The position numbers and the translations under genes are program-made. This document shows positions 9,745 to 56,115 of a DNA stretch of 64,000 nucleotides, in pieces; the stretch's first letter is position 1, and every line of letters begins with the position of its first letter. Origin of the DNA: Cyanobacteriota bacterium (GTDB lineage Bacteria > Cyanobacteriota > Cyanobacteriia > CACIAM-69d); NCBI GenBank assembly GCA_022402445.1, contig JAKRSF010000008.1:310001-374000 (forward strand). The letters run 5' to 3'. The notes under the pieces are model-generated. The model did not search any database. It was not told the origin of the DNA and worked only from the letters and a program-made list of their open reading frames with translations.

Positions 9745-9892
9745 CCGCTTCCCCGGCCTAACCCCATTGTTGCGCCGCCGCCGCTCCCGGCCACCCCCCA
9801 ACCCTCCTAAGGGATTGAAACGGGATTGAAACTTACCCAACGCCCGCGCCTGCCATTTGCCCCCGTGCGGGCACGAGGAACCCTACATCGCC

Positions 9893-12966: not shown

Positions 12967-13112
12967 TCTGACAGTCTGGCCGGTGGGTCCGGATTGGGGC
13001 CGGGTGGTTCCACGGAGGGCGGTTGGGGCGATATCCTAGGCCATCTGGGGTCTTGGGATCCCGCGATCGCCCCCTGCCGGTCCATGAGTTGTTTAGTGGG
13101 AGTGTGAGGTTT

Positions 13113-13448
13113 ATGGGTCAGGTGTTGACGATCCGCGATGCGGATTTCGAGCGTGAGGTGTTGCAGGCGGAGGGGACGGTGCTGGCCTATTTTTGGGCCC
13201 AGTGGTGCGGTCCCTGTCGGCTGATGGGGCCGAGTATCGAGTGGGCGGCGTCGGCCTATGCTGAGGGGCTCAAGGTGGTGAAGCTGGAGGTGGACCCGAA
13301 CCCGGAGAGCGTGAAGCGCTGCCAGGTGGAGGGGGTTCCGGCCCTGCTGCTGCACCGCAATGGGGAGTTGATTGACCGCAGTGAGGGGGCGATCACCCGC
13401 GAGAAGTTGGCGGCGTTTTTGGCTCCCCATTTGGGTGCAGCGGTCTAG
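13113..13448 (+). CDS. Thioredoxin (cyanobacterial TrxB/x-type-like)
   Basis: A 111-residue thioredoxin. The active site W31-C32-G-P-C35 is intact, preceded by VLAYFWAQ. The cis-Pro motif is VEGVPALLL, and KLEVDPNPESVKRC matches the cyanobacterial thioredoxins of the Slr1139 type as I recall them. It is a cytoplasmic dithiol-disulfide reductant of target enzymes. ATG 13113 gives the normal family length; longer in-frame starts add an unrelated Gly/Arg segment. It lies 146 bp after vipp1 in the same direction and is immediately followed by a repeat element (13469-13676) that separates it from the aminotransferase gene. Confidence 0.87.
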   Translation: MGQVLTIRDADFEREVLQAEGTVLAYFWAQWCGPCRLMGPSIEWAASAYAEGLKVVKLEVDPNPESVKRCQVEGVPALLLHRNGELIDRSEGAITREKLAAFLAPHLGAAV

Positions 13449-13468
13449 AACCTGTCGTCAATTCCACC

Positions 13469-13676
13469 ACCGTAGGGGTTGGGTTTCCCAACCCTCGCCC
13501 AACCGATCACCACAAGGCTGTCGGATTTATGTCTCCCAACCCTCGCCCAAGGGATTACCACGGGGCTATGGGGTTAATGTTTTCTAACCCTCGCCCACGC
13601 GATCGCCGCAAACCTCTTCAATTTCGGGCATGGCAGGGATCGCGGGGGCTGGGCGGGGAAACCCCGCCCCTACGGT
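13469..13676 (+). mobile_element. MITE-like repeat, copy A (10-bp terminal inverted repeats)
   Basis: A 208-bp element bounded by ACCGTAGGGG (13469-13478) and its exact reverse complement CCCCTACGGT (13667-13676). Each end forms a short palindrome (GGGTTGGG..CCCAACCC on the left, GGGCGGGG..CCCCGCCC on the right). Inside are three 48-bp tandem units starting AACCCTCGCCC at 13490, 13538 and 13586. No transposase is encoded, so it would be non-autonomous. No target-site duplication is obvious. Related copies are at 27223-27404, about 39271-39340 and about 56030-56094. Confidence 0.65.
13490..13633 (+). repeat. Three 48-bp tandem units inside repeat copy A
   Basis: The motif AACCCTCGCCC recurs at exactly 48-bp spacing (13490, 13538, 13586). 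Degenerate sequence follows each time, with GAT..ACCAC or GATCGCCGC and GGCT or related text. The corresponding left part of copy B has one unit. Confidence 0.7.
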
Positions 13677-13732
13677 TAATCGATTAAATTTGTCTTTTTG
13701 TGAGTGGCTTCTGTGATCGGTGCCTGTGCCCT

Positions 13733-14917
13733 ATGAGATTTGCGGACCGGATTCGACCCCTTCAGTTCAATGTGTTTGCGGAGATGGATCGGGCGAAGGC
13801 GGCGGCGATCGCGGCGGGCCTAGAGATTATTGACCTGTCCTTGGGGTCGGTGGATTTGCCGACGCCGGAGCCGGTGCTTGAGGCGATCGCGGCGTCCCTG
13901 GGGGATTCGAGCACCCATGGCTATCAACTGTTCCGCAATACCCAGGCGTTCCGGCAGGCGGTGGCGGCGCGCTATATGGCGACCTTTGGGGTGCCGGTGG
14001 ATCCGGAAACGGAGGTGCTGGCCCTCATCGGTTCCCAGGAGGGTACGGCCCATCTGCCGTTGGCGATCCTGAATCCGGGGGATGTGGCCCTGTTGCAGGA
14101 TCCGGGCTACCCGTCCCACTACGGCGGCGTGTATCTGGCGGGGGGTGAGCCCTATCCCATGGCCCTGCGGGCGGAAAAGGGGTTTTTGCCGGATTTTGAT
14201 GAAATTCCGCCAGAAGTGGCGGCGCGATCGCGGCTGATGGTGCTGAACTATCCCCACAATCCCACGACGGCGACGGCGAATGTGGCGTTTTTTGAGCGGG
14301 CGCTGGCCTTTTGCGATCGCCACGATCTCGTTTTAGTCCACGATTTCGCCTATGACGGCATGGTGTTCGAGGGGGGCGAGCAGCCGTCCATTTTCCAGGT
14401 GGATCGCGATAAACGCCGCTCGATCGAATTTTTTACCCTCTCGAAGGCTTTTAATATGGGGGGCTTCCGCATTGGCTACGCGATCGGCAACCGGGAGCTG
14501 ATCCAGGTGCTGCGCCAAATTAAGGCGGTGGTGGATTTTAATCAATATGCGGGGGTGCTGCGGGGGGCGATCGCGGCCCTGACCGGTCCCCAGGACAGCC
14601 GCCATGAACGGCTCGCGATTTTTCAAGAACGCCGGGATGCTTTCATTCAAGCCATGGCCGCGATCGGCTGGGCCGTGCCGACCCCCAAGGCGACGATGTT
14701 TGTGTGGGCCAAGCTGCCGGAGCCCTGGACGACGCGATCGGTGGATTTTTGTACCCAACTGGTGGCCGCCACGGGGGTGGCCGTTGCTCCGGGCTTTGGC
14801 TTTGGTCCGTCCGGGGAGGGCTATGTGCGCTTTGCCCTGGTCCAGGATCCGACGGGGCTTCAGGTGGCGGTTGATCGCATCGCTCGGTTCTTGCAAACGT
14901 CGGGGCGATCGCAATGA
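13733..14917 (+). CDS. Class I/II PLP-dependent aminotransferase
   Basis: A 394-residue fold-type I aminotransferase. The cofactor lysine lies in FTLSKAFNMGGFRIG (K238). Other cofactor contacts include NYPHNPT (Asn/Pro, about 172-178) and DFAYDGM (about 204-210), with GYQLFRNTQAFRQAV in the substrate-facing N-terminal part. The overall pattern resembles the LL-diaminopimelate/aspartate aminotransferase group; the amino-acid substrate is not decided by sequence alone. ATG 13733 is preferred over GTG 13700 because the family N-terminus begins MRFADRIRPLQFNVF. It is convergent with the next gene, 9 bp between stops, and is separated from the thioredoxin gene by a repeat element. Confidence 0.85.
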   Translation: MRFADRIRPLQFNVFAEMDRAKAAAIAAGLEIIDLSLGSVDLPTPEPVLEAIAASLGDSSTHGYQLFRNTQAFRQAVAARYMATFGVPVDPETEVLALIGSQEGTAHLPLAILNPGDVALLQDPGYPSHYGGVYLAGGEPYPMALRAEKGFLPDFDEIPPEVAARSRLMVLNYPHNPTTATANVAFFERALAFCDRHDLVLVHDFAYDGMVFEGGEQPSIFQVDRDKRRSIEFFTLSKAFNMGGFRIGYAIGNRELIQVLRQIKAVVDFNQYAGVLRGAIAALTGPQDSRHERLAIFQERRDAFIQAMAAIGWAVPTPKATMFVWAKLPEPWTTRSVDFCTQLVAATGVAVAPGFGFGPSGEGYVRFALVQDPTGLQVAVDRIARFLQTSGRSQ

Positions 14918-14926
14918 TGGACTAAC

Positions 14927-15616
14927 TTAATCCACGCCGATGCTAGATAAGTCCGCCGCCGCGATCGCGTCCGCCGTCGCCAGCGGTTCCCCGAGATAGA
15001 TCGCCCGAATATCCGGCGGCAACGATTCTTGGATGGCCCGGTAGCCCTGCCGCAGCCGCGCCCGCACCCCCGCTGGCGAAATGGTTTCCCCCTCCGCTTG
15101 CAGATAGGCCGCAATGCGCGGTTCGCTCCAGTGCAGGGTTTGGGCCATGATCGTCATCAGCCGCGTCATCGGTTCCTGGCGATCGAGGGCATTTTCCAGA
15201 TAGCACCACAACGGCGGCGATGCGTTCGAGAGGGAATAGTGGATCGACTCGACCGACGGCAATTCCGCCTGGTTCACGCACACCGCCGTGATATTGATCA
15301 GCCAATTTTGCAGCGTGAATTCCTCTAGGTTGGCGCTGCCTCCGAGGTTTTCCTGGGCGAGGCGCAGATTCAGGATCGTCAGTTCCCGAAAAATGCGCTG
15401 CCAGGTTTTGGCGAAGAGGTAGTCCGTCTGGACCGGCGACAGGGTGGCGTGGCGCGCGAGGGTATAGACGATGGGGCTGTAGCGGCAAAAGAGCGCGACA
15501 AAATAGCGGCCCGAGTCGGGATATCGCTGGAACAGATCCAACAACTCCAGATCGCTGCGGGCGGCCAAGGAGGCGACGATCGGGTGCTGGGCTTCGGGGA
15601 AGTGGGGCGTGTCCAT
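14927..15616 (-). CDS. Sigma-70-like (ECF-like) protein
   Basis: A 229-residue soluble protein. Residues about 20-85 resemble sigma region 2: DLELLDLFQRYPDSGRYFVA, FCRYSPIVYTLARH and TDYLFAKTWQRIFREL, in which the family has a conserved aromatic helix that melts the -10 DNA. Residues about 165-215 (LHWSEPRIAAYLQAE, SPAGVRARLRQGYRAIQESL) look like a helix-turn-helix resembling region 4. Both are divergent, and the middle insert is longer than in standard ECF factors. It may be a true alternative sigma factor or a relative with another role. No anti-sigma gene is adjacent. The start ATG 15616 is the first in-frame start. Confidence 0.5.
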   Translation of the reverse strand: MDTPHFPEAQHPIVASLAARSDLELLDLFQRYPDSGRYFVALFCRYSPIVYTLARHATLSPVQTDYLFAKTWQRIFRELTILNLRLAQENLGGSANLEEFTLQNWLINITAVCVNQAELPSVESIHYSLSNASPPLWCYLENALDRQEPMTRLMTIMAQTLHWSEPRIAAYLQAEGETISPAGVRARLRQGYRAIQESLPPDIRAIYLGEPLATADAIAAADLSSIGVD

Positions 15617-15849
15617 GGGGCGATCGCGGGGTTGGCGGGTCGGCTCGGGGTCATCGTAGCCACCACTTTAGCAACAACCGGCTAGGGCAACTCAGCGACC
15701 ACCAGCCCATCACCGCCCCGAGGCCAGTCAATAGACAAAACCCTAGCCGATACACCAAACAGCGTCATTTGGCGACAACTGACAACGGATCCAAGCGATC
15801 ACCATGCCCGCAACGGTCCATTGGTCAGCCCCATAAAACAATTACCTTT

Positions 15850-16545
15850 TTAAGCACCTCGGCCTAACATCGCAGGTACATCAACCTCCTTAATACAGGT
15901 CAATCGAGACAGGGAAAGAATGCAGTCAATGATGGCCAGAAGATCCCTAAGAGGAATGGCTTCATCCCCCGTTAGATTGGCTGCTGCGAGATCTGCCAAA
16001 ACTTCTGGAGTGCCAACATTGCCAGCATTAATCACCGTGATCCCGATCTGCTGCGATCGCAACTCCTCCCGTAGGGCATGGACCACCCCCCGCAGTCCAA
16101 ACTTCGATGCACTGTTGGCAACCTCCCTTCCTGGGAAGTTATCTCGACCGGAAAGTGCCCCCATAAAAATAATTTTGGGATGATCCGATCGCCGCAGGGC
16201 AGGCAGTAGCGCCTTGACTAACCGAATGGGGGCCACCAGATTAACGGCAATGACGCGCATGATGTCCCCATCAGAGCAGGTTTCAAAGCGATACTGAGGG
16301 GTAAATGCGTGGGTTTCCCAGGTTCCACCCATATATAGCAACGCATCTAAAGTGTTATCCCCGATCGCATTGACCACCGTTTCTATGCCCGCCAGGTTAG
16401 CTAAATCTGCCTGCACCCATTCACCCACCGGAGCAGCGGTGCGAGAGACCGTCAACAGGCGATCGCATCGGCCTATCAAATGTTCTGCAACCGCAAGTCC
16501 AATGCCACGACTTGCCCCTGCAACCAGAATCGTTTTAAAGGACAT
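15850..16545 (-). CDS. Short-chain dehydrogenase/reductase-like protein, catalytic Tyr replaced
   Basis: A 231-residue Rossmann-fold protein of the SDR family. The cofactor motif is GASRGIG (10-16), DxxN-like sequence DLAN lies at 47-50, and INAGNVGTPEV resembles the usual PG-x-V-x-T segment. The canonical Y-x3-K is N144-SAS-K148: the lysine is kept but the catalytic tyrosine is Asn. The protein may therefore be inactive as a classical reductase, a binding protein, or use another acid. It is 15 bp downstream of the GNAT gene and probably co-transcribed with it. The pair is divergent from a TetR regulator, a typical layout for a substrate-induced module. The substrate is unknown. Confidence 0.75.
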   Translation of the reverse strand: MSFKTILVAGASRGIGLAVAEHLIGRCDRLLTVSRTAAPVGEWVQADLANLAGIETVVNAIGDNTLDALLYMGGTWETHAFTPQYRFETCSDGDIMRVIAVNLVAPIRLVKALLPALRRSDHPKIIFMGALSGRDNFPGREVANSASKFGLRGVVHALREELRSQQIGITVINAGNVGTPEVLADLAAANLTGDEAIPLRDLLAIIDCILSLSRLTCIKEVDVPAMLGRGA

Positions 16546-16560
16546 GGCTGGTCTCCCGTA

Positions 16561-17235
16561 CTAATTGAGGCGCAGGCCAAGCTTGGTCACCCCCGGAAAG
16601 TCGATATTGAATTGCTCCAAGAAATAGTCAGCATAAAACGTTTGATAGGGCTTAAATCCAACGGATTCATAGGCATGACGAGCAACATCATTGCCGTTGA
16701 TCACCGTAATGCCAGCAAATTCATGCCGCCGCGATCGCCCCTCCTCTAGCAGAGCCCGCAGCAGCACCTTGCCAAAGCCCCGCCCCCTCGCCCCTGGCAA
16801 TACCGCCACATTTTCGATGATCCAAGTTGCCTGGGGTGTGAGGAAAAAGGGTTGCAAATCTCCTCCCCACAACGTCATATAGCGATCGCGAAAAACGCCC
16901 ACGGTTTCGGCGGACCAACCTAACTCCTGGGCGATCGCCCCTAGGTGGGATAGGCGCAGCGGGCAGTAGTTTTCCGGATCGGGCACGTAGCCTGCGGCGG
17001 CGGCAACGGGCTTTCCTTCGGCCTCCAAGATCAGAAAATCCCCAACGCCGCCCCAATTGGAAGCATCTGACTTCAACTCCGCCTCGATGAATTGCAGGGC
17101 GGTCGTTCCAGTCCCCTCCAGCAAATCCTCCCAAAAGCAGTGGTTGGAGGGGGGTAAAGACGCCTCATACTCGATTTGGACGAGGAAAGGGATATCGGCG
17201 GCGATCGCCTTGCGGGTGCTCAGGGTAGCCAACAT
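16561..17235 (-). CDS. GNAT family N-acetyltransferase
   Basis: A 224-residue protein with a GNAT fold. The acetyl-CoA-binding motif is ENVAVLPGARGRGFGKVLL (V-x-P-x-x-R-x-x-G-x-G/A), followed by ALLEEGRSR, and motif B NGNDVARHAYESVGFKPYQ. The N-terminus (ATLSTRKAIAADIPFLVQIE) begins the first strand and helix. It probably acetylates a small amine or amino acid; the acceptor is not readable. It is the first gene of a two-gene run with the SDR-like gene, with the TetR gene divergent. Two operator-like sequences lie between GNAT and TetR (17259-17291 and 17316-17336), so TetR control is likely. Confidence 0.83.
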   Translation of the reverse strand: MLATLSTRKAIAADIPFLVQIEYEASLPPSNHCFWEDLLEGTGTTALQFIEAELKSDASNWGGVGDFLILEAEGKPVAAAAGYVPDPENYCPLRLSHLGAIAQELGWSAETVGVFRDRYMTLWGGDLQPFFLTPQATWIIENVAVLPGARGRGFGKVLLRALLEEGRSRRHEFAGITVINGNDVARHAYESVGFKPYQTFYADYFLEQFNIDFPGVTKLGLRLN

Positions 17236-17258
17236 AGAACTCCTTTGGGGGATTTTTC

Positions 17259-17291
17259 ACGATAAGATGCAGGCTGCATGTATCTTATCGT
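17259..17291. promoter_or_regulatory. Operator-like palindrome, 10-bp arms
   Basis: ACGATAAGAT (17259-17268) and ATCTTATCGT (17282-17291) are perfect inverted repeats with a 13-bp spacer that itself contains the near-palindrome GCAGGCTGC. It lies 23 bp upstream of the GNAT start and between two divergent genes, one of them a TetR regulator, so it is a good candidate operator. Confidence 0.7.
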
Positions 17292-17315
17292 AGCGGGCCG
17301 GTCCAGCCCCGTCAA

Positions 17316-17336
17316 GATACGTGCAGTATGAATGTT
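17316..17336. promoter_or_regulatory. Second operator-like site
   Basis: GATACGTGCAGTATGAATGTT matches the reverse-complement reading of the first palindrome (GATACATGCAGCCTGCATCTT) at 16 of 21 positions. It is 18 bp upstream of the TetR ATG, where binding would repress its own gene. Confidence 0.5.
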
Positions 17337-17354
17337 AAAATTGAGTGATTGATC

Positions 17355-17942
17355 ATGCCGATCAAATTGACGAAGGCGGAGCAGACCCGGCGCACTCGCC
17401 GTGCGATTCTGGATCGGGCGCGTTACCTATTTGCCACCAAGGGGTATGCCGCTACGGGCACTGAAGAAATCATCAGTGAGTTAGGGATTACTCGGGGGGC
17501 CTTGTACCATCAGTTCAACGATAAGCTTGGCGTTTTTAAGGCGGTTATCGTTGAAGCCTATGGCGAGATTACGGACTATATTCAAGCTAAGGTTGAGCCC
17601 TTAGATACGAATTGGCAGCGGTTGGTCGTTGGCTGTCAAGCGTTTCTGGAGGTTGCCCATCAAGATGAACTGCGGCGTTTGGTTTTTATTGAGGCTCCAG
17701 CCGTCCTGGCGGCAGATGATTTGACTGAAATAGATCAATATGGTTTTGCTTTGCTCCATGAGGCTATTCAGGTTGCCGTTGCCGAGGGAGATTTATGCAC
17801 AATCAATGCGGAGGGGTTTGCTCACCTGGTTAATGGGTCGCTGAATGATTTGGCGGCTTGGGTGGCGCAGTCGAATGATCCGAATCAATTGGAGACGGCG
17901 AAAGCTCTGGTGGCAATTTTGCTGGAGCGACACCGTAGCTAG
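17355..17942 (+). CDS. TetR family transcriptional regulator
   Basis: A 195-residue TetR-type repressor. The N-terminal helix-turn-helix is clear: RRAILDRARYLFATKGYAAT, then TEEIISELGITRGALYHQF (recognition helix, about 37-55) and NDKLGVFKAV. The ligand-binding half is all-helical and non-conserved, as usual. ATG 17355 is preferred; a TTG two codons upstream is also possible. It is divergent from the GNAT-SDR pair, with two related operator-like sequences in between, so it most likely represses that pair and itself. No HIP1 site occurs in this gene, unlike most of the window. Confidence 0.9.
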   Translation: MPIKLTKAEQTRRTRRAILDRARYLFATKGYAATGTEEIISELGITRGALYHQFNDKLGVFKAVIVEAYGEITDYIQAKVEPLDTNWQRLVVGCQAFLEVAHQDELRRLVFIEAPAVLAADDLTEIDQYGFALLHEAIQVAVAEGDLCTINAEGFAHLVNGSLNDLAAWVAQSNDPNQLETAKALVAILLERHRS

Positions 17943-18314
17943 GTCGATTGGCGCGGTGTGAAGTGTCAGAGGATGTCTGAAATGTCTAAGTTGATCGGTT
18001 TTTGCCGCTGACGATGGGGGAAGCGCAGGGGCTCAGATCTCCTATTTCTACGAGGCTGGTTGCTCGTCAGGTGATTTGGGTCGTTGTCAGCTATGTTCTT
18101 CGGTGATTGTTTTAGTGATGTTGATGGATCATTCCTGGGCTGCTGGACGCGATCGCGGCTGACCGACACCACCATTGAGGGTGAGTTAAGCTAATCCCTC
18201 ACAAGCTTTGGTATCGCACAGGGCGATCATTGCGCGATCGCCCCAACTCAAGCGTTACATTACCTCTGCCCTAGTTTAGCTTTACCCGTCAGCAACAATC
18301 CAGGGCGTAAAACC
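17943..18314. other. Intergenic region, no gene recognised
   Basis: No convincing coding sequence or RNA gene. The short open frames here are not supported by ribosome sites or family motifs. The last HIP1 octamer before the low-GC polysaccharide genes is at about 18236. Confidence 0.5.
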
Positions 18315-19154
18315 TCACAGCAAGCGCTGCAAATTGGCATCCTTTCGAGCAACAAACTTTAACCTAACAATTCGATAGGCGAACACCGCATGTTTTGTTA
18401 ATTTGTCAGTCACCTTTTTTCTGAAGGAGCGTTTTGGAAATTCAATTTTTTCGTGGGCTTCAAAAAATTCTTTTTTATCATCAAAGCTAGATTGATTATT
18501 CTTGATTTTAAATTTCTCAATATTGTCTTTAAAAACTGGAAATCGATCTTTTGAATCAAGTCGCATATTAAAGCCTGTCTTTGAGGATGCTAGTCCAATC
18601 GTGTTTCCTTCTCCACCGTAAAAACTTTGCATCTCGAAGAAATAGGAAATTGTTTGCCAAAGTTTTAGGAACTCTAGCTCAACACCCCCTTGCCTCGTAA
18701 CGGCAAACATGAATTCATGGAGCCAATAGGTCTTTTCAAGATCAATATCTAGTTTATTTGAAACATGCTCAAGCAGTGGAAGGATTCGCCGCTGATTTTT
18801 TCTTGAATTGTGCTTCAATATGTTGCACCCGGCCCTGGCGGTGATTCCTGGCTCCCATGACAACTGCTCTGGAACTTGACCAAGAATCCGAACATCCGAG
18901 TCTATGAAGAGACAGGTGTCAAAATGAAGCAACGCGGCTTGAATCACAAAACGCTTGTCATGGTAGCCCTTTACGCTTTGAAGTCGATGCTTGATTGCCT
19001 GAACAGCGGGATACCCTACAAAATCTTCGGGCTTATCGGTTAAGACGATGATGGGAATGTTAGGCGCATACAATTGGGCATCTTGCACCAGATTAATTGC
19101 ATGCTGACGATATCTTTTGCCAACGGCTAAAGTACCAAAACACCAGTTGCTCAC
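18315..19154 (-). CDS. Glycosyltransferase-like protein, probably acquired
   Basis: A 279-residue protein with a GT-A-like N-terminal half. It starts FGTLAVGKRYRQHA and continues with PIIVLTDKPEDF, and the acidic metal/nucleotide-sugar motif is FIDSDVRILG (D-x-D at about 84-86). The C-terminal 80 residues are Lys/Phe/Asn-rich and the DNA there is very AT-rich, unlike neighbouring genes. The likely role is sugar transfer to a surface glycan; donor and acceptor are unknown. It lies 98 bp downstream of a polysaccharide pyruvyl transferase gene on the same strand, and the pair probably works on the same polymer. HIP1 sites are absent throughout. Confidence 0.6.
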   Translation of the reverse strand: MSNWCFGTLAVGKRYRQHAINLVQDAQLYAPNIPIIVLTDKPEDFVGYPAVQAIKHRLQSVKGYHDKRFVIQAALLHFDTCLFIDSDVRILGQVPEQLSWEPGITARAGCNILKHNSRKNQRRILPLLEHVSNKLDIDLEKTYWLHEFMFAVTRQGGVELEFLKLWQTISYFFEMQSFYGGEGNTIGLASSKTGFNMRLDSKDRFPVFKDNIEKFKIKNNQSSFDDKKEFFEAHEKIEFPKRSFRKKVTDKLTKHAVFAYRIVRLKFVARKDANLQRLL

Positions 19155-19252
19155 TATGATTAACTCTCCATGTGTTCTGATGAGGTGGCTAGGTGCCTTT
19201 TTACAGCAAAAATTACGTTAACTGGCCGCTCAAATGTTCTTTTGTTTCAAAT

Positions 19253-20128
19253 CTAAACGAGGAACAAGCCACGCTCAACATCCAACTTAAAGCGCTGAAG
19301 TCTTTCCTCAAGCTGGATCGTCAAGGATTCTATGTGTGAATCGCTGCTTAGGGAAGGGGACTGATCTGTCGCAACCTTCTTCAAGGTCACGCTGGCCCTA
19401 TTCTGTCTAACCTTGTCACGAATGCGGCGCACTGGGGTTAGAACATCTGTTTTGCTCTTGGGATGATGCAATCGATCAATGTGGACTGGACGATATTCGA
19501 CGCCAATTGATGAACACCAATCCTGCCATTTGAAGGAAAGGATTGTGTTGTTTGTAACTATAGGAATCCAAGGAATCCGGAGTGCGTCGGCTACTATTGC
19601 CCCATGCATGGCTTCCGCTAGCAAAACCTCTGTCTGGCCCATTGCGTCTAATACGCGCTCAACGGTCCACCGAGGATCGATGTAGCCGAAACCAATTGCT
19701 TCACATGCGCGGATCCAACCTTCCCCTGCCAATTCATAGTGTGGCATGTAGGAGAATTGATATTTCTTCTGCTGGGGCGCTGTAGAAAATGCCCTGCGTA
19801 TAAGAGCTGCCCCATCGGTCACGGCCGCTTCATCTTCTAATCCCAAAGATTTGGCAGACAGCGGACCTCTTACGCAATAAATTTTGTAGGATTCATCAAG
19901 TTTTAGCTTTCCTTTCCCGTAGCCTACGCCTGTACCAAAAATCACTCTTTTTGTTGCATAACGAGTGCGATAGGCCAAGCCATCATTGAGGAGGCTGCCA
20001 ATTCCAACAAAGGCTACGCGATTGTCATCATCCAAAATTCCGGGCATGAGTTTTTCCCAAAGCCAGGGATTAAGGTCGTCTCCGAAGTTTCGTTCACCAT
20101 TGGGCAACTTATACCAACAGAGTTTCAT
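19253..20128 (-). CDS. Polysaccharide pyruvyl transferase family protein
   Basis: A 291-residue protein matching the polysaccharide pyruvyl transferase family. It starts WYKLPNGERNFGDDLNPW, continues with FGTGVGYGKGKL and CVRGPLSAKSLGL, and has the late motif LLAEAMHGAIVADALRIPW that ends the catalytic core. Members transfer pyruvate from phosphoenolpyruvate to sugars of exopolysaccharides. The C-terminal 60 residues are charged and helical. Upstream (20129-20799) no related gene is present, so this two-gene polysaccharide unit is isolated from the usual assembly genes (no polymerase or flippase nearby). Lower GC and lack of HIP1 sites suggest it was transferred in. Confidence 0.78.
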   Translation of the reverse strand: MKLCWYKLPNGERNFGDDLNPWLWEKLMPGILDDDNRVAFVGIGSLLNDGLAYRTRYATKRVIFGTGVGYGKGKLKLDESYKIYCVRGPLSAKSLGLEDEAAVTDGAALIRRAFSTAPQQKKYQFSYMPHYELAGEGWIRACEAIGFGYIDPRWTVERVLDAMGQTEVLLAEAMHGAIVADALRIPWIPIVTNNTILSFKWQDWCSSIGVEYRPVHIDRLHHPKSKTDVLTPVRRIRDKVRQNRASVTLKKVATDQSPSLSSDSHIESLTIQLEERLQRFKLDVERGLFLV

Positions 20129-20799
20129 GATGTCTGATGACCTGAATGTTGCGAATTCAAATTATGAAGTACGTGCCCTGGAGGGATATTCCCACGGCGG
20201 CTAACCCTAGCGCTGTGAAGGCTAGTTGCAAATGTGGAATAACATTCTTTTTTAGAAACTTGGTGCCGCAAGTGCCGTGTTTGAAGGAGCGCAGTCCCTA
20301 AGGCTTTTGGGGTACTAATACTTTTGGGGTGCTAATACTATAGATGTGCGACTTCTGATGCCCCCTCAACCCTACTACATCCGCTACTGAACCGGTAGGG
20401 GCAAAGGAGCCTATCCCTAATATTTTCGATACAGCACTTTTGCTGTCAACTCTAGGCGGCGGGGCTCTCCTCAAGGTGCTGTGGTTGACTTCCTGGATAC
20501 GATCGCGCCCAACCAACCCCAAGATCGAGGGCAAATCAGGAAGATCATGGGTGAGATGCTCGGTAGCCTTGCCCTAGTCGGCCTTCATACGGATCCGCCT
20601 TGGCACTGTACGGGGTCAGGATTCCGCGATCGCGCCCACCCCGGCGTTAAATTCTCGCTACATTGGGAACCATAGTCTTAACGAAAAAAGGGAATTGGGG
20701 GTCGATTGATCCGGTCGAACTGCACCGCCGGGAGGAAGCGCGTAGGGATGGCTGGATTGGGAATCGTAGGGATTAACCATTGGAAGGGAGAGTTGGCCC
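20129..20799. other. Long intergenic region, no gene recognised
   Basis: No motif-bearing reading frame is present. Around 20301-20340 there is a short direct repeat (TTTTGGGGTACTAATAC, then TTTTGGGGTGCTAATAC). HIP1 reappears near 20625. The promoter of the downstream protease gene should lie in the last 150 bp, but no clear hexamers stand out. Confidence 0.5.
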
Positions 20800-21708
20800 A
20801 TGGCTCGGGCGGACGTACCAACGAAGGATTTAGCGTTCTATATCGCCGTTTTGGTCCTCGGCGGTGCGGTGGGCCTGGGGGCGCGGCTGGTGCTGGAGGG
20901 GCGATCGCTGCCCATGGCGCTGCCGGTGGTGCATCAAACGGAGGTGCGGCCGGATCTGGAGGACGCGATCGCGGCCCCGCCGGAGACGCAACTGGATGAA
21001 GGGACCGTCCCCCAGGGGGAAAACTTTGTGGTGCGGGCGGCGGCGCAGGCCCTCCCGGCGATCGTCCGCATTGAAACCTTTGGCCGGGGGGTGGATCCGC
21101 GATCGGCCACGGCGGGGGAACGGCTGGGCACCGGCAGCGGCGTGGTGCTTGATCGCGAGGGGTTGATCTTGACCAATGCCCACGTCTTGACCGATGCGGC
21201 GACGGTGATGGTGACCCTGGCGGATGGGCGATCGCGATCGGCGCAAATCGTCGGGCGCAAGGGGGCGGCGGATGTGGCCGTCCTGCGGATCAAGCGCGAA
21301 GCTGAGGATCCACCGCTGCAACCGTTAGCCCTGGGCCGGTCCGATCGCCTGGTGGCGGGGCAATGGGCGATCGCCATCGGCCATCCCCTGGGGCTTGATC
21401 GCTCCGTGACCGTGGGCGTCGTCAGTGCGCCGCGCCGTCGGGCGGACTGGGTGGGCCTTGGGCATCGGGCGGTGGAATTTATTCAGACCGACGCGGCCAT
21501 CAATCCGGGCAACTCCGGCGGGCCACTCCTGAACGATCGCGGGCGCGCCATCGGCATCAGCACCGCCATCCGCGCCGATGTGCCCGGTGTGGGGTTTGCG
21601 ATTCCCATCGAAGATGCCCTACGGGCGGCGGACTTAATCCTGAAGGAACAGGCGGCGGCGGCGAATTCGGCCAAAACGTCGGCGGCCCCGGCCCCCGCGC
21701 CCCAATAA
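20800..21708 (+). CDS. HtrA/Deg-type trypsin-like serine protease without PDZ domain
   Basis: A 302-residue protein. A membrane anchor or signal segment (residues 11-31) is followed by a trypsin-like protease domain with full catalytic triad: H128 in LTNAHVL, D158 in AADVAVL, S239 in GNSGGPLL. The substrate loop VGVVSAPRR is also visible. HtrA/DegP proteins normally have one or two PDZ domains after the protease domain; this one stops about 30 residues after the last strand with an Ala/Pro tail, so PDZ is missing. It is probably an envelope protease of misfolded proteins, perhaps with altered oligomer control. The start ATG 20800 has GGAAGGGAGAG upstream. It is tail-to-tail with the metal permease gene (14 bp). 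Confidence 0.85.
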   Translation: MARADVPTKDLAFYIAVLVLGGAVGLGARLVLEGRSLPMALPVVHQTEVRPDLEDAIAAPPETQLDEGTVPQGENFVVRAAAQALPAIVRIETFGRGVDPRSATAGERLGTGSGVVLDREGLILTNAHVLTDAATVMVTLADGRSRSAQIVGRKGAADVAVLRIKREAEDPPLQPLALGRSDRLVAGQWAIAIGHPLGLDRSVTVGVVSAPRRRADWVGLGHRAVEFIQTDAAINPGNSGGPLLNDRGRAIGISTAIRADVPGVGFAIPIEDALRAADLILKEQAAAANSAKTSAAPAPAPQ

Positions 21709-21722
21709 TTCCCTAAAAAAAC

Positions 21723-22655
21723 TCAGCGGCGGAACAGCGATCGCAACTCCCGCCACAGGGGCGATGGGGGACGTGAACCGACGTGGCGCGGCTGGGTCAA
21801 CACCCCATGGCGCGGACTCAACAGCAGCGCCAGCCCAAAGAGCACCGACGCCACCAGAACGATCGCCGGACCCGACGGCAGATTGTAGCTATAGCTCAAA
21901 AACAACCCCGTCACGCTGGACACCAGCCCCAGGATCGACGCGATCGCCATCATGTGGTGCAGCCGAGTTGCCAAGAGATAGGCCGCCGCCGGGGGCGCAA
22001 TCAGCATCGACAGCACCAGCACCACCCCCACCGCCTTCATACTGGCGACGATGGTGAGGGCGATCGCCGCCGTCAGCCCCAGATCCAGCACATGGACCGG
22101 CAACCCCGACGCCTCCGCCCCCAGGCGATCAAACGTATAAAAATGCAGTTCCTTATAGAACAGGGCAACGGCCACCAAAACCACCGCCGCCGCGATCGCC
22201 GTATCGCGCACATCCTCGGGGGTGACCGCCAGCAAATTGCCGAATAAAAAATGATTCAGATCGATCTTGTTGGATTTTTGAATCGCCGTAATCAGGGCAA
22301 TGCCCAGGGCAAAAAAGCCCGATAGGACAATGCCCATGGCCGCATCTTCCTTAATGGGCGATCGCGTGCGGATCCAGTCAATCAAGCCCGCACTCAGCAG
22401 CCCCGCCACAAACGCCCCCACCGCCAAATTCCAGCCCAGGCCAAAGGCGATCGCCACCCCCGCCAGCACCGAATGGCTAATGGCATCCCCCAGCAGGGCC
22501 ATCCGCTGCACCAGCAGATAGCACCCCACCACGGCGCACAGCACCCCAACCATCACCGCCACCAGGAGCGATCGCCGCATGAACGCCAATTGCAGCGGTT
22601 CGATCAGGGCATCAAGCCCGCTCCCCCAATCCAGCGCCAACACCACCTCCGCCAT
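21723..22655 (-). CDS. mntB: Metal ABC transporter permease, MntB/ZnuB type
   Basis: A 310-residue integral membrane protein of the ABC-3 family with about eight or nine predicted spans. Typical pieces are GDAISHSVLAGVAIAF, GALITAI-like helices and the C-terminal signature KAVGVVLVLSMLIAPPAAAYLL. It would form the channel of a Mn/Zn importer with the ATPase encoded just upstream (2-bp gap) and the binding protein encoded divergently. Manganese is the more likely metal in cyanobacteria, but sequence alone does not separate Mn from Zn, so the name is provisional. The C-terminus has an Arg/Pro tail. Confidence 0.82.
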   Translation of the reverse strand: MAEVVLALDWGSGLDALIEPLQLAFMRRSLLVAVMVGVLCAVVGCYLLVQRMALLGDAISHSVLAGVAIAFGLGWNLAVGAFVAGLLSAGLIDWIRTRSPIKEDAAMGIVLSGFFALGIALITAIQKSNKIDLNHFLFGNLLAVTPEDVRDTAIAAAVVLVAVALFYKELHFYTFDRLGAEASGLPVHVLDLGLTAAIALTIVASMKAVGVVLVLSMLIAPPAAAYLLATRLHHMMAIASILGLVSSVTGLFLSYSYNLPSGPAIVLVASVLFGLALLLSPRHGVLTQPRHVGSRPPSPLWRELRSLFRR

Positions 22656-22657
22656 CC

Positions 22658-23398
22658 CTAGGCCGCCCCCTGGAAAAAGTCCACCCGACCGCCATAGGCC
22701 CGCGACAGCAGCTCATCATTGAGCACAAACCGCCGATGCCCCGCCGCGATCAGCTCCCGGTTCAGCAGCACCACCTCATCAAACCGGGCCATCACATCCC
22801 CCAAATCATGGTTGACCACCACCACCGTGTGGCCCGCCGCCGCCAACTCCTGAAACACATCTAAAACGATCGCCTCCGTCCGCCGATCCACCCCCACCAA
22901 GGGCTCATCAAAAAAGAACACCTCCGCCCCCTGGGCCAGCGATCGCGCCAAAAATGCCCGCTGCTGCTGGCCGCCGGACAGGGCACCGATGGGGCGATCG
23001 CGCAGATCCCAAAGCTCCACCCGCTCCAGGGCCGTCCGGACCCGCTGGCGACTGGTGGCCGAAAAGCCCCGAAACCAGCCCGTCTGCCGGGTGCGCCCCA
23101 TCAGCACCACCTCCGCCACCGTCGCCGGATAGGTCAAATCCACCTGCGATCGCTGGGGGACATAGGCCACGCGATCGCGACACTCGATCAACGGGCGATC
23201 GCCATAAATCACCGTGCCCGCCTCCGTGGGAATCAACCCCAGCATCGCCTTCATGAACGTGCTCTTGCCCGCGCCGTTGGGGCCAATGATCGCCGTGAGC
23301 CGCCCCGGTGACAGGGTGACGGAAATATCCCGCAGGGCCTCCACGGATCGATACCGCGCCCGCAACCCCCGCACCGCGATCGCGCTTCCCTGGACCAT
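22658..23398 (-). CDS. mntA: Metal ABC transporter ATP-binding protein, MntA/ZnuC type
   Basis: A 246-residue ABC ATPase. Walker A is GPNGAGKST, the Q-loop lies in YVPQRSQVD, the ABC signature is LSGGQQQR, Walker B is VFFFDEPLVGVD, and the switch His is VVNHDL. It energises the permease encoded immediately downstream. The ATG at 23398 is chosen because upstream in-frame TTG codons add a non-family stretch and GGAAGCGGCGGGGG lies ahead of this ATG. The gene is divergent from the substrate-binding protein gene, and the shared upstream region contains phased direct repeats. Confidence 0.88.
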   Translation of the reverse strand: MVQGSAIAVRGLRARYRSVEALRDISVTLSPGRLTAIIGPNGAGKSTFMKAMLGLIPTEAGTVIYGDRPLIECRDRVAYVPQRSQVDLTYPATVAEVVLMGRTRQTGWFRGFSATSRQRVRTALERVELWDLRDRPIGALSGGQQQRAFLARSLAQGAEVFFFDEPLVGVDRRTEAIVLDVFQELAAAGHTVVVVNHDLGDVMARFDEVVLLNRELIAAGHRRFVLNDELLSRAYGGRVDFFQGAA

Positions 23399-23436
23399 GG
23401 CCTTACCCCCGCCGCTTCCTAGCAACTTGACGAAAA

Positions 23437-23476
23437 TATGAAAGGATTATGAAATCAATTATGAATGAATTCTGAA
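23437..23476. promoter_or_regulatory. Phased TATGAA direct repeats upstream of mntC-like gene
   Basis: TATGAA occurs at 23437, 23448 and 23460, and TCTGAA at 23471: spacings of 11, 12 and 11 bp, on one face of the helix. They sit between the divergent mntA- and mntC-like genes in an AT-rich patch. OmpR-family regulators such as cyanobacterial ManR bind direct repeats with about this spacing, so this is a candidate box for metal-dependent control. Confidence 0.55.
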
Positions 23477-23494
23477 AAGACGAGGAATGGACCG

Positions 23495-24529
23495 ATGGCA
23501 CCGAAACATTTCTTAATGGCCGTGGACCTGATGAACTGGCGCTGGGGGTGGCGGTGCGTCCTCAGTGTGGGGCTGGGGGTTGGGCTGGGGCTGGGGTTGG
23601 GGGCCTGTGGGGGGGCGGAGGAGTCTGAATCTGGGGGGGCGAATGATGGGCGACCGGCGATCGTGGCCACCAGTACGATCCTGGCGGATTTGACGACGGA
23701 GTTGGTGGGGGATCAGGCGCGGGTGATTGGCCTGCTGAAGCCGGGGGATGACCCTCATATTTATGAGCCGGTACCCCAGGACAGCCGCGCCCTGGAGGAG
23801 GCGGATTTGATTGTTTATAACGGCTACAATCTCGAACCCCAGTTGATTCGCCTGATGCGCGCGGCGGGGGCGACGGTGCCCCAGGTGGCGATCGCGGAGG
23901 CGGCGGCTCCCCTCTCGACGGACTATAACGGGGCGACGGTGCCGGATCCCCATGTGTGGGGGGATGCCCGCAATGCGATCGCCATGGTGGAGCGGCTAGA
24001 GGGGGCGATCGCGGAGCAGTTTCCGGCCCTGGGCGATCGCGTGGACGCCCAGGGGGCGAATTTAATAAAAACCCTGGAGGCGCTCCACCGGTGGATTAGC
24101 GCCCAAATTGCCACCATTCCCGAGGGCCAGCGGCGGCTGGTGACCTCCCACGATGCTTTTCAGTACTATGCCAATGCCTACGGGATCCCCGTCGCCGGGA
24201 CGCTCATTGGCATCAGCACCGAGGAGCAGCCCAGCGCCCGCACGGTGGAGGCCCTGGCCTCGGCGATTCGGGCGGCCCGGATTCCCACGATTTTTGCGGA
24301 AACCACCGTCAATCCGGCGCTGCTGAAAACCGTGGCGGCGGAGGCGGGGGTGCAACTGGCGGATCAAGAGCTCTATGCGGATTCCGTGGGGGCTCCGGGC
24401 AGCGGCGCGGAAACCTATGTGACGATGATGGTGGCCAATACCCGCGCGATCGTGGAGGGGTTGGGGGGCCGCTATGAACCGTTTGTGGATCCGGCGGCTT
24501 CTACGGATGATGCGCGATCGCAACCATAA
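23495..24529 (+). CDS. mntC: Metal-binding lipoprotein of ABC importer, MntC/ZnuA type
   Basis: A 344-residue periplasmic metal-binding protein (cluster A-I). The N-terminal hydrophobic stretch ends with a lipobox (LGAC) before a Gly/Ser linker. The family fold follows: IVATSTILADLTTELVG, metal-ligand region PGDDPHIYEPVPQD (His), PHVWGD (His), and later FAETTVNP (Glu) and LYADSVGAPGSG (Asp). The start is uncertain: ATG 23465 lies in the direct-repeat array, so 23495 (after GAGG) is preferred; 23516 or 23531 also possible. It is divergent from the ATPase-permease pair, unlike the common single mntCAB operon. Confidence 0.88.
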   Translation: MAPKHFLMAVDLMNWRWGWRCVLSVGLGVGLGLGLGACGGAEESESGGANDGRPAIVATSTILADLTTELVGDQARVIGLLKPGDDPHIYEPVPQDSRALEEADLIVYNGYNLEPQLIRLMRAAGATVPQVAIAEAAAPLSTDYNGATVPDPHVWGDARNAIAMVERLEGAIAEQFPALGDRVDAQGANLIKTLEALHRWISAQIATIPEGQRRLVTSHDAFQYYANAYGIPVAGTLIGISTEEQPSARTVEALASAIRAARIPTIFAETTVNPALLKTVAAEAGVQLADQELYADSVGAPGSGAETYVTMMVANTRAIVEGLGGRYEPFVDPAASTDDARSQP

Positions 24530-25000
24530 AAAAATTCCTCAAAAGCTCCGTTCCGCCTCTGTCAAAATCAAAAATTAACGGTAGGGTGCGTTCGGTCCTA
24601 TTCAGCTTAATGCGATCGCCCTTCTATCCCGAACGCACCGCCCCAGTCCCAATCGACGCGATCGCCTATCCTAGCCTAGGATCCCGGTGATACAGGTTGA
24701 TTCTATTCATTGGCGAGGTTGATCAGTGATCTCCACAGGTGTCGGTGCGTTCGGAGAAAGGACGCGATCGCGTTGGGCTAAAAGTTACCGAACGCACCCT
24801 ACCGGTGATTTATTAATTATTGAATTTTGCATAAATATTCCTGGATTGCGAGGCGGTGGGGGCGCGATCGCGCGATTTCAACAACATCAGGTCAAAAATG
24901 CAATTTCTAAAGATGTAGAAGCGCAGGAATTCAACGGCACGGACATTTCGAGATACCTTGGACGAGTTGACCCGTTAACGAAACAATCGCCCTTAGACCC
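24530..25000. other. Intergenic region carrying a nested inverted-repeat element
   Basis: No gene. Most of it is occupied by the element at 24580-24803. The rest (24804-25000) contains AT-rich sequence with no recognised promoter hexamers. Confidence 0.55.
24580..24803. repeat. Nested inverted-repeat element with 17-bp perfect termini
   Basis: GGTAGGGTGCGTTCGGT (24580-24596) and ACCGAACGCACCCTACC (24787-24803) are perfect reverse complements. Two inner copies of the core lie between them: CCGAACGCACC at 24629-24639 and GGTGCGTTCGG at 24744-24754. The order is plus, minus, plus, minus, so the two halves can each fold into a hairpin and the whole can fold into a longer one. No coding content. 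The core resembles a dispersed motif common in cyanobacterial intergenic DNA. Confidence 0.75.
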
Positions 25001-25591
25001 ATGGTTTTAACCCCCTCTACGATGCTGCCCCTGGGGACGATCGCGCCGGACTTTGACCTGCCGGAGGTGGTGTCGGGCCAGCGGATTTCCCTGGATGTCC
25101 TGGTGCCCGCCGCGAGCCCCCGCCCGCTGTTGGTGATGTTTATTTGTGAGCATTGCCCCTATGTGAAGCATGTGCAGACGGCCCTGGCGGATCTCGGGCG
25201 GGACTGGGGCGATCGCGTGGCGATCGTGGCCATCAGCGCCAACGATGCGGCCACCCATCCCACGGACGGGCCGGAGGGGCTGCGGGCCATGGCCGTCGCC
25301 CAGGGATTTACGTTTCCCCTGTGCTATGACGAAACCCAGGCGATCGCGAAAGCCTACACCGCCGCCTGTACGCCGGACTTTTTCCTGTTTGATGGCGATC
25401 GCCGCCTGACCTATCGCGGCCAGTTGGACGATAGCCGACCGGGGAATGGCAAACCGGTGACGGGGCAGGATCTGCGGGCCGCGATCGCCGCGACGGTGGC
25501 GGGGGAACCGGTACCCGAGCCGCAAATCCCGAGCATCGGCTGCAATATCAAGTGGAAATCGGGCAATGCCCCCAGCTATTTTGGTGCGTAA
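25001..25591 (+). CDS. Thioredoxin-fold (peroxiredoxin/AhpC-TSA-like) protein
   Basis: A 196-residue protein with a redoxin fold. The N-terminus has PDFDLPEVVSG, then VMFICEHCPYVKHV with C49-x2-C52 at the usual thioredoxin/peroxiredoxin site. The family of CEHCPYVKH proteins is widespread in bacteria and is annotated as thioredoxin family; its substrate is not defined. FPLCYDETQAIAKAYTAACTPDFFLFD contains the conserved Cys-Thr-Pro (cis-Pro) segment. No signal peptide, so probably cytoplasmic. ATG 25001 is the first plausible start. The 3' end carries one copy of a 15-bp duplication. Confidence 0.8.
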   Translation: MVLTPSTMLPLGTIAPDFDLPEVVSGQRISLDVLVPAASPRPLLVMFICEHCPYVKHVQTALADLGRDWGDRVAIVAISANDAATHPTDGPEGLRAMAVAQGFTFPLCYDETQAIAKAYTAACTPDFFLFDGDRRLTYRGQLDDSRPGNGKPVTGQDLRAAIAATVAGEPVPEPQIPSIGCNIKWKSGNAPSYFGA

Positions 25592-25626
25592 TTTCCATTA
25601 CCCTTTGCGTCATTTTGGTGCGTAAT
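25578..25626 (+). repeat. 15-bp direct duplication at gene end
   Basis: ATTTTGGTGCGTAAT occurs at 25578-25592, where it includes the stop of the thioredoxin-fold gene, and again at 25612-25626, ending just before the GTG start of the DUF2927 gene. The 34-bp period suggests a recent local duplication. Confidence 0.7.
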
Positions 25627-26403
25627 GTGAGAAGACTCGGTGGCGCGATCGCCCTGGCGGCGGTCCTCTGGCAGTCCTGGGTGGCGGTGGGCAGCGGGCC
25701 GGGGGGTGGGGGGCGATCGCGCGATCGCTCAGATGCCTTGGGCCTGCCCCTCCCCTTCCAGAATCCGTCCCCGCAGGTCGCCCAGGGTACGCCTCCCCCA
25801 ACGGCCCCCTGGAGACCCGACGCCGCCACCCTGCAAGAGTTTGAGGCGATCGCCTTTGGGGGGGAATTTTCCCGCGATCGCAGCCTCCAGGTCATCCGCA
25901 AATGGGCCACGGATCTGCGCATCGCGATCGCCGGACGCCCCACCCAAGGGGATCTCGAAACCCTAGAGCGCACCATCGCCGACCTCAGTGGCCTCATCGC
26001 CCCCCGGCGGATCCGCCTAGAGCGCCAAAATTCCAATGTCGCGATCCATTTTGTCCCCACCGCCGAATTCCGCCGCATTGAACCCAACTATGTCGAAGGG
26101 AATCGGGGATTTTTCTACGTGTGGTGGAATAATCGCTCGGAAATCACGCGATCGCGCATCCTCATCGCCACGGACGGCATCACGCAAGCGGAGCGATCGC
26201 ACCTGATCCGCGAAGAACTCACCCAATCCCTCGGCCTGATGAACGACAGTTGGCGCGACCCCGCCAGCACCTTCTATCAAGGCTGGACCGCCACTCAAAC
26301 CTACACGGACCGCGATCGCGCCATCATCCGCCTGCTCTACGATCCGCGCATCCGACCGGGCATGAACCGCCGCGAGGTCCGCCGCGCGATCGCATCCCCA
26401 TAG
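25627..26403 (+). CDS. DUF2927 family secreted protein
   Basis: A 258-residue protein from GTG 25627. This start avoids overlap with the upstream gene and gives a signal peptide (RRLGGAIALAAVLWQSWVA). After a Pro-rich linker comes a domain matching DUF2927: DLSGLIAPRRIRLER, NVAIHFVPTAEF, then HLIREELTQSLGLMNDS and YTDRDRAIIRLLYDPRIRPGM near the C-terminus. The spacing of HLIREELTQSLG resembles zinc-peptidase relatives, but the HExxH core is not intact, so I do not call a protease. Probably periplasmic or exported. It follows the thioredoxin-fold gene by 35 bp. Confidence 0.72.
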   Translation: MRRLGGAIALAAVLWQSWVAVGSGPGGGGRSRDRSDALGLPLPFQNPSPQVAQGTPPPTAPWRPDAATLQEFEAIAFGGEFSRDRSLQVIRKWATDLRIAIAGRPTQGDLETLERTIADLSGLIAPRRIRLERQNSNVAIHFVPTAEFRRIEPNYVEGNRGFFYVWWNNRSEITRSRILIATDGITQAERSHLIREELTQSLGLMNDSWRDPASTFYQGWTATQTYTDRDRAIIRLLYDPRIRPGMNRREVRRAIASP

Positions 26404-26409
26404 ACCCCC

Positions 26410-26443
26410 AAAAAGCAAAACAAGGGACGAAAAAAGCCCCTTG
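26410..26443 (-). terminator. Intrinsic terminator of the ctaCDE strand
   Basis: On the minus strand CAAGGG and CCCTTG (26438-26443 and 26421-26426) form a stem with an 11-nt loop, followed by TTTTGCTTTTT. It lies 49 bp past the ctaE stop, so it ends the oxidase transcript. Confidence 0.65.
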
Positions 26444-26491
26444 CTCCAAACAACATAACCCTAGTGAATGGGCGACTCTGAAGGTGCGTTT

Positions 26492-27109: not shown

Positions 27110-27222
27110 GGGAATGGTGAAATCCTAGATACATCGGGGACAGATTGCGACCCGTTCAAGACTTCTTCAGTTTGGGTCCGTTTCAGAAACAAAAGGCTTA
27201 GGAGATATCGTCATTTCCGTCG

Positions 27223-27404
27223 CCGTAGGGGTTAGGTCTCCCAACCCTCGCCCCACCGATCACCCCCAACCCATTCAACCCTGGGACTATCAGGAACTGT
27301 GGGGCTGGGCGGGGAGACGGGGCGGGGGGGTGCCCTGGGGACTGGGCGGGGAGACGGGGCGGGGGGTGTCCTGGGGGCTGGGCGGGGAGACCCCGCCCCT
27401 ACGG
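27223..27404 (+). mobile_element. MITE-like repeat, copy B
   Basis: A 182-bp relative of copy A. It begins CCGTAGGGG (27223-27231) and ends CCCCTACGG (27396-27404), perfect 9-bp terminal inverted repeats. The left half matches copy A once (AACCCTCGCCC followed by CCGATCACC). The right half has three units of 36-37 bp, each with CTGGGCGGGGAGAC, at 27305, 27342 and 27378, where copy A has one. Confidence 0.65.
27302..27395 (+). repeat. 36-37-bp tandem repeats with G-quadruplex potential
   Basis: CTGGGCGGGGAGAC recurs at 27305, 27342 and 27378. Each unit adds three or more runs of four G, enough for a quadruplex on the plus strand. They lie inside repeat copy B. Confidence 0.7.
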
Positions 27405-27435
27405 CAATCGGGGATGGGAGGCGCGAAACTCGAAT

Positions 27436-38751: not shown

Positions 38752-39249
38752 GTGGACTGCCCTGACCCCCCAACTCCCCCCGTGCTGCCCGATCGCGATC
38801 GCGAACTGACCTTTGCCCCCTGCCGCGCCTGCCACGTCTGGGTACCCGGCCCCGCATGGCGCTGCCCCGAATGCGGCGCGGCCCGGTTAGAAGCCCTCCC
38901 CGCCGCCGTCGCCGACTGGTCCAGCGTCATCACCGACCAGGACTGGCTGACCATCGATGACGAAGCGCTCCTAAAACCCCTCTTCGCCCACTTTCGCCGC
39001 CAAGCCTACGATCGCGGCCTCGGACCCATCGTGGCCGATCGCGCCTTTTTCCGCCAAACGGGTCGCGTGCCCGATCGCCGCTGGTACCTGGGGTCCACCT
39101 TTGGCGATCGCCCCACCGCCGCCGATCAGCGCGCCTACCAAACCTATCTCCTCGCCGCCGCCCACCGGGCCGCCAAACCCCTCACCTGGGCGATCGAACA
39201 ATTTCAGCAGGAATTTGGCCCCCACTGTCCTTGGCCCAAGCCCCCCTGA
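38752..39249 (+). CDS. Zinc-ribbon protein of unknown function
   Basis: A 165-residue protein if GTG 38752 is used (155 from GTG 38782; the start is uncertain). The N-terminal part has two CxxC pairs (PCRACHVW and WRCPECGAARL), a probable zinc ribbon. The rest is helical, with FRRQAYDRGLGPIVADRAFF and RWYLGSTFGD. I do not recognise the family. The gene is 31 bp after the EamA-type gene on the same strand. Downstream lies a partial copy of the repeat family. Confidence 0.55.
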   Translation: MDCPDPPTPPVLPDRDRELTFAPCRACHVWVPGPAWRCPECGAARLEALPAAVADWSSVITDQDWLTIDDEALLKPLFAHFRRQAYDRGLGPIVADRAFFRQTGRVPDRRWYLGSTFGDRPTAADQRAYQTYLLAAAHRAAKPLTWAIEQFQQEFGPHCPWPKPP

Positions 39250-39270
39250 TTTCCCTACCCCATCCGACCA

Positions 39271-39340
39271 ACCGTAGGGGCGGGGTTTTCCCGCCCGTTC
39301 CCGCCTGACCCTGCCCGTTCCCGTGATCCCTGAAATCCCC
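39271..39340 (-). repeat. Partial repeat-family copy C (inverted)
   Basis: ACCGTAGGGGCGGGG followed by TTTTCCCGCCC is the reverse complement of the right end of copies A and B. Read on the minus strand the sequence runs TTTCAGGGATCACGGGA to CCCCGCCCCTACGGT. The left end is missing. It lies between the zinc-ribbon and msrP-like genes. Confidence 0.55.
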
Positions 39341-39351
39341 AAGGGCAGCGC

Positions 39352-55980: not shown

Positions 55981-56029
55981 GGGCCGGGGCCGATCGCGGG
56001 TTGGGTTTCGACTCTAGCGCGATCGCCCC

Positions 56030-56094
56030 AGACCCGTTCAAGCTTGGGGATGTCAGGGATCGCGGGGACTGGGCGGGGAAACCCCACCCCTACG
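56030..56094 (+). repeat. Partial repeat-family copy D
   Basis: Between the response-regulator and kinase genes lies a stretch close to the right end of copy A: TTCAAGCTTGGGG, then TGTCAGGGATCGCGGGG, CTGGGCGGGGAAACCCC, ending ACCCCTACGA. Two or three bases differ from copies A and B, including the final CGG to CGA change. No left end is present. Confidence 0.55.
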
Positions 56095-56115
56095 ATGGCT
56101 GATTACGGGACAGAA

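Follow-up and report, generated by a model that had tools for sequence, protein, structure and literature searches.

Two repeats in a 64,000-nucleotide stretch of DNA (hereafter, the window; positions C11:310001-374000 of a 4.08-Mb genome assembled in 13 contigs) raise the question of what kind of element they represent and what has spread it. The initial annotation placed copies A (13469-13676) and B (27223-27404) between perfect 10-bp and 9-bp inverted ends, which are found exactly there, and described a MITE-like family. The kind of element, non-coding and mobile, was correctly recognized, but the boundaries were not: the supposed termini are internal GTAG-tagged REP hairpins, and the outer left ends lie farther upstream (Table 1). 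In our assessment, these repeats are probably variously decayed copies of one ~189-bp non-autonomous MITE that inserts at TA and encloses an asymmetric pair of RAYT-type REPs (REPIN/BIME). There are well over a hundred copies, and each layer is of a known kind; it is the nesting of the layers and the repeated stretching of older copies that look unusual, and among open-licence papers, we found no account of a REPIN inside a TA-MITE.

The genome under study (G000) was compared with five relatives (G001-G005), of which G004 is the source of the compact copies from a sister genus; these comparisons were run with query stretches of at most 20 kb. The study genome is presumably cyanobacterial, as judged from its sequence, which is rich in GCGATCGC. 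The census of elements in it covered about 413 kb around the copies and contig ends, plus the window. It yielded 125 distinct elements, of which 50 contain both REP ends, with nhmmer matches of the near-palindromic copies on both strands counted once.

What the initial annotation saw as one element, CCGTAGGGG...CCCCTACGG, consists of two GTAG-tagged REP hairpins that differ in type and face each other as an inverted pair. The left-type REP has the form GTAG-GGGTTGGG-TYT-CCCAACCC and the right-type REP the form GTAG-GGGCGGGG-TTT-CCCCGCCC; stem pairs 4 and 5 co-vary between them (C-G/G-C in the right type versus T-A/T-A in the left type), and two copies carry paired stem changes on both sides (GGGCAGGG/CCCTGCCC). 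With up to two mismatches allowed, the whole genome contains 75 left-type and 96 right-type REPs, compared with 0 matches to a reversed control pattern, and the window contains 3 strict GTAG hairpins, compared with 0.15 per Markov-simulated window. All 31 clear dimers consist of one left and one right REP with the tags facing outward (three further called dimers involve atypical stems). As in REPINs and BIMEs, the two inverted GTAG-tagged hairpins are able to fold into one: for three compact copies, single-stranded DNA folding gave -36.5, -29.7 and -30.2 kcal/mol, with z-scores against shuffled sequences of -4.65, -4.04 and -3.10. The pair thus shares with the head-to-head dimers of GTAG REPs (Di Nocera et al. 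2013, PMC3733652) and with REPINs (Bertels and Rainey 2011, PMC3116915) the GTAG tag, the 8-bp stem, the 3-nt loop, the outward-tagged inverted arrangement, the single-stranded hairpin, the presence of a RAYT in the genome and the location mostly downstream of genes. In contrast to those systems, the stem types of the two REPs in a pair here always differ, and the pair is enclosed by a longer element that is flanked by TA and has inverted ends of its own.

Table 1. Coordinates of copies A-D and their parts in the window
Feature	Position	Strand	Evidence
MITE copy A, outer frame	13446..13733	+	Profile built from 18 sister-genus elements aligns with 13446-13686, starting at model position 1
Copy A, left outer end TAGAACCTGTCGTCA	13446-13460	+	Same profile match
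Copy A, probable right outer end GCCCTA	13728-13733	+	Right arm length as expected
Copy A, left-type REP GTAG-GGGTTGGG-TTT-CCCAACCC	13472..13494	+	
Copy A, tandem units (inner arm of left REP + spacer)	13486..13611	+	Tandem Repeats Finder: period 48, 2.6 copies, 75% match
Copy A, right-type REP GTAG-GGGCGGGG-TTT-CCCCGCCC, stem identical to RAYT-gene REP	13651..13673	-	
MITE copy B; left end TAGGAGATATCGTCA (27199); right outer arm not intact past 27406 (degraded or lost)	27199..27406	+	Profile match; site empty in G002, G005
Copy B, left-type REP GTAG-GGGTTAGG-TCT-CCCAACCC	27225..27247	+	
Copy B, tandem units (inner arm of right REP + spacer)	27300..27391	+	Tandem Repeats Finder: period 36, 2.5 copies, 91% match
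Copy B, right-type REP	27380..27402	-	
Copy C, remnant; right-type REP at 39274-39296, outer right arm partly kept	39247..39345	-	Model 80-160
Copy D, degraded; right-type REP 56071-56093 (minus strand), one G-T stem pair	55998..56103	+	Model 31-144 of 193

The right arm of copy A has the expected length of 59 bases but only 24/59 identities, a match that was as good in 8 of 2000 shuffles, so that its right end, placed by sequence at GCCCTA, is probable rather than certain. Copies C and D had been thought to keep the right end only; C is a lone right-type REP with a remnant, and D retains more than the right end (Table 1). Elsewhere in the window, positions 9811-9832 read GGGATTGAAACGGGATTGAAAC, two copies of a motif similar to the 3'-terminal part of CRISPR repeats in cyanobacteria; no array was seen.

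The outer layer is best seen in the sister genus. A search of G002 with a 20-kb stretch of G004 revealed that the conserved unit extends beyond the REPs, and in the sister genus, this unit is a uniform 189-bp MITE between TA dinucleotides, TA-GGGCCTGTCGTCA...(108-bp REP pair)...TGACGACAGGCCC-TA. Flanking sequence is shared by most of 40 sister-genus copies, with TAGGGCCTGTCGTCATTTCCATCGC preceding the pair and ...TGACGACAGGCCCTA following it; the outer ends are located about 24-25 bp beyond the left REP and about 57 bp beyond the right REP. Most of the complete copies measure 187-190 bp between the TA dinucleotides and have 13-bp inverted ends; the aligned consensus, with both TA included, is 193 bp long, with 15-bp inverted ends that include the TA. 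TA flanks are not universal in G004 and G002: of the 28 end pairings listed, 13 have a TA at both ends and nearly all others have it at one. The 23 compact G004 copies, in which the REP pair spans 100-109 bp, show a mean identity of 85%, compared with 77% among the copies of the study genome.

In the study genome, this outer frame is eroded. The terminal inverted repeats GGGCCTGTCGTCA/TGACGACAGGCCC are present in the sister-genus copies and the left one is retained in A and B; the target-site duplication is found as well, within the study genome in the best-kept copies only. The outer left end persists in 48 of the 75 left-containing copies, but both outer ends in only 5, and most local copies therefore resemble solitary REPs or REP pairs devoid of outer arms. 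Furthermore, 14 right-only copies do not extend beyond the REP, which suggests that some right-type REPs spread without the MITE. Going by their description as cited in PMC10969869, QMITE2 of Coxiella and Nezha of cyanobacteria are likewise non-coding, intergenic elements of about 190 bp with inverted ends and with truncated copies that resemble REPs; by the same description, the GTAG-REP pair and the cognate RAYT in the genome set the present element apart. In G002, we also observed two elements of 145-146 bp that have the same outer inverted ends and the CAAGGGGCT palindrome inside but no REPs (L429:16200-16344 and L452:15145-15290); these are possibly REP-free members of the MITE family.

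The initial annotation proposed to look for co-occurrence of the two ends elsewhere, for empty sites and for target duplications, and all three were found: the ends co-occur genome-wide, and the insertions are polymorphic. At site A, the element is absent from G002, G004 and G005, where the same two genes are a few dozen bases apart as opposed to about 285, and site B is empty in G002 and G005, with unrelated sequence in its place in G004; because the relatives are only 71-80% identical, these empty sites cannot be fixed to the base. For two G004 copies, the flanks meet or nearly meet in G002, whereas no synteny with the relatives was found for sites C and D. The duplication is most apparent where the MITE sits, as it often does, in the central TA of a repeated palindrome, CAAGGGGCT-TA-AGCCCCTTG: among 21 exact left ends, 11 are preceded by CAAGGGGCT-TA, and among 16 right ends, 7 are followed by TA-AGCCCCTTG. 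The uninterrupted palindrome, CAAGGGGCTTAAGCCCCTTG, is perfect and abundant, with 38 matches at up to three mismatches in 1.06 Mb of G002 (for example, L423:9874, L426:5853 and L430:10201). The intact palindrome thus serves as a built-in empty site: compared with it, the interrupted form, with TA...TA, reveals the TA duplication.

The initial annotation also proposed to look for a transposase gene with the same terminal repeat; a search of 1.06 Mb of G002 and of the other fetched loci revealed no autonomous partner bearing the outer ends, and a plasmid search with a complete MITE as the query gave zero matches. Given that no autonomous transposon was found, we infer a DDE-type mover from the TA and the inverted ends alone. 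TA duplication suggests IS630/Tc1-mariner-like or some IS5-like enzymes.

Contig ends were considered as candidate copies of the autonomous partner and rejected because they contain an unrelated IS, with relatives in the IS4 family, inserted into REPs. This IS, with the ends CACTGGCTTCAAC/CACGGGCTTCAAC, occupies a fixed site in the right-type REP and is accompanied by a 9-bp duplication, GGGGAAACC, at the contig ends C3-C13 of G000 and, among the relatives, at L226 (G004) and L233 (G005); in the G005 relative, a transposase gene of the IS4 family is present (NF033592, E = 2.1e-59). The IS-end query consisted of 60 bases, five of them added filler. Among the 16 IS-bearing contig ends, 14 abut an intact or degenerate REP, and the two others have ATTGAGGGT in common. 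IS insertions in REPs appear to explain most of the assembly breaks.

The tandem units of the initial annotation, 48 bp in A and 36-37 bp in B, were recovered by Tandem Repeats Finder (Table 1), and the observation that opposite halves are amplified in different copies extends to the rest of the genome, where the left half is expanded in A, C5:33086 and C13:79162, and the right half in B, C13:359479 and C5:165962, with periods of 12-49 bp. Of the 50 full-length copies, 24 are no longer than 122 bp and 26 are longer, up to 248 bp; among the full-length pairs of G004, there is one clear expansion (126 bp), and the others span 100-109 bp. Because expansion is common in the study genome and rare in the sister genus, where the copies are young and uniform, it probably follows insertion in most cases. 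The earlier proposal of modular tandem slippage after insertion is accordingly supported as regards timing; that replication slippage at the hairpin arms drives the expansion is what we infer. As far as it is described in PMC4596501, the BrickBuilt MITE of Porphyromonas gingivalis similarly contains tandem repeats inside a MITE; here, in contrast, the repeated unit is one REP arm with a spacer, and either half may expand.

The element is indeed non-coding, as the initial annotation held when it reported no encoded transposase, but this left out a RAYT (REP-associated Y1/HUH transposase, subclass-2.4 type) that is encoded elsewhere in the genome by one gene (C9:211263-211847, minus strand; 194 aa) with the same right-type REP. 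The protein matches NCBIfam NF047646 with E = 1.4e-16 and a score of 60.7, under the cut-off of 80, and a Pfam search yielded a single sub-threshold match to Y1_Tnp (13.3 bits); its identity as a RAYT is backed by NCBIfam and tblastn. The HuH motif (NHVH), WQRNY and the Y motif (YIITNP) are all present. One right-type REP lies upstream of the gene and another forms part of the reading frame, in the interval from the HuH motif to the tyrosine, and no left-type REP was found at the gene. The orthologues in G002 (85%) and G004 (82%) have an identical layout, with right-type REPs upstream and in frame, and the number of in-frame units of REP arm and spacer differs across the three genes, where it is seen as insertions in the protein alignment. 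The presence of REPs within the transposase gene has been published for TnpA-REP subclass 2.4 (PMC6006769), with which this RAYT shares the length, the HuH signature (NH[IFV]H), the WQ motif, long canonical REPs whose stem base is formed by three G-C pairs and the in-frame insertion of a REP between HuH and Y; it differs from the YIxNNP form of the Y motif by one residue.

The same arrangement is widespread. Among 80 RAYT loci (L237-L316), 62 of the 76 analysable genes, from many phyla, contain a GTAG hairpin in the reading frame between HuH and WQRNY/Y, with only two hairpins outside the HuH-Y interval; by simulation, 0.02 such genes are expected. These in-frame hairpins are usually whole inverted pairs, across many phyla. 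A second RAYT, about 41% identical and without an internal REP, is encoded in G002:C11 and G005:C100 (L149 and L140); it is flanked by another GTAG REP type, GTAGGGGCGTACCGCCGTACGCCC, and thus a separate REP family coexists in G002 and G005.

Under the preferred reading, an unseen DDE-type transposase would have spread the whole unit in trans, acting on the outer ends; the MITE would insert at TA and duplicate it, often at the central TA of another repeated palindrome. The RAYT would recognize the inner REPs and might give rise to single REPs or rearrange them, and, after insertion, replication would slip between short repeats at the inner arms of both hairpins, stretching either half. An extension of this scheme, not exclusive of it, is that the element can be moved by both enzymes, the DDE transposase via the outer ends and the HUH-type RAYT via the inner REPs. 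Both sets of recognition features are intact in the sister-genus copies and bare right-type REPs coexist with MITE copies, but bare REPs may be remnants of the MITE and no event by either route was observed; we regard this dual mobility as rather unlikely.

A rival proposal treats the two REPs as a normal REPIN that the RAYT mobilizes, with the conserved outer arms being flanks copied along. In its favour, the GTAG tags, the inverted pairing, the folding into a long hairpin and the presence of a RAYT with matching REPs are as in the Pseudomonas REPINs (PMC3116915). The REP counts across G000-G005 also track the close RAYT, with both present in G000, G002 and G004, few REPs and no close RAYT in G005, and neither in G001 and G003. 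This proposal does not predict, however, that the outer arms, too, form inverted repeats and directly adjoin a TA that is duplicated and a palindrome that is interrupted, nor does it fit the REPs of the RAYT gene, which are both right-type, as opposed to the left-right combination in all genomic pairs. The pure REPIN reading was demoted because conservation in the sister genus does not stop at the REPs but continues for about 25 bp on one side and 57 bp on the other, and we consider this reading improbable.

By a simple ORF caller, a heuristic, 62 of 120 copies lie between convergent genes, 42 between unidirectional and only 4 between divergent genes, with 12 inside an ORF, a context that resembles that of other REPs, which lie downstream of genes. 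It is nevertheless highly improbable that the repeats are immobile transcription terminators or mRNA-stabilising hairpins maintained by selection, given the empty sites in relatives, the dispersed homologous copies with TA-flanked ends and the zero matches in an Rfam search of window positions 13000-28000, although such a role may exist as a secondary effect.

REP families are usually credited to RAYTs alone. If, as the evidence for a TA-inserting MITE suggests, a different element most likely brought the REP pair to its many sites, the number of REPs need not be a measure of how active the RAYT is. The two genera, one with uniform copies and the study genus with decayed, expanded ones, provide a natural before-and-after series of the ageing of a hairpin element, including the stretching of either half. 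Should both enzymes prove to act on it, two unrelated transposition chemistries would each spread the recognition sequences of the other, and this system offers a clear test of whether one element answers to two transposases.
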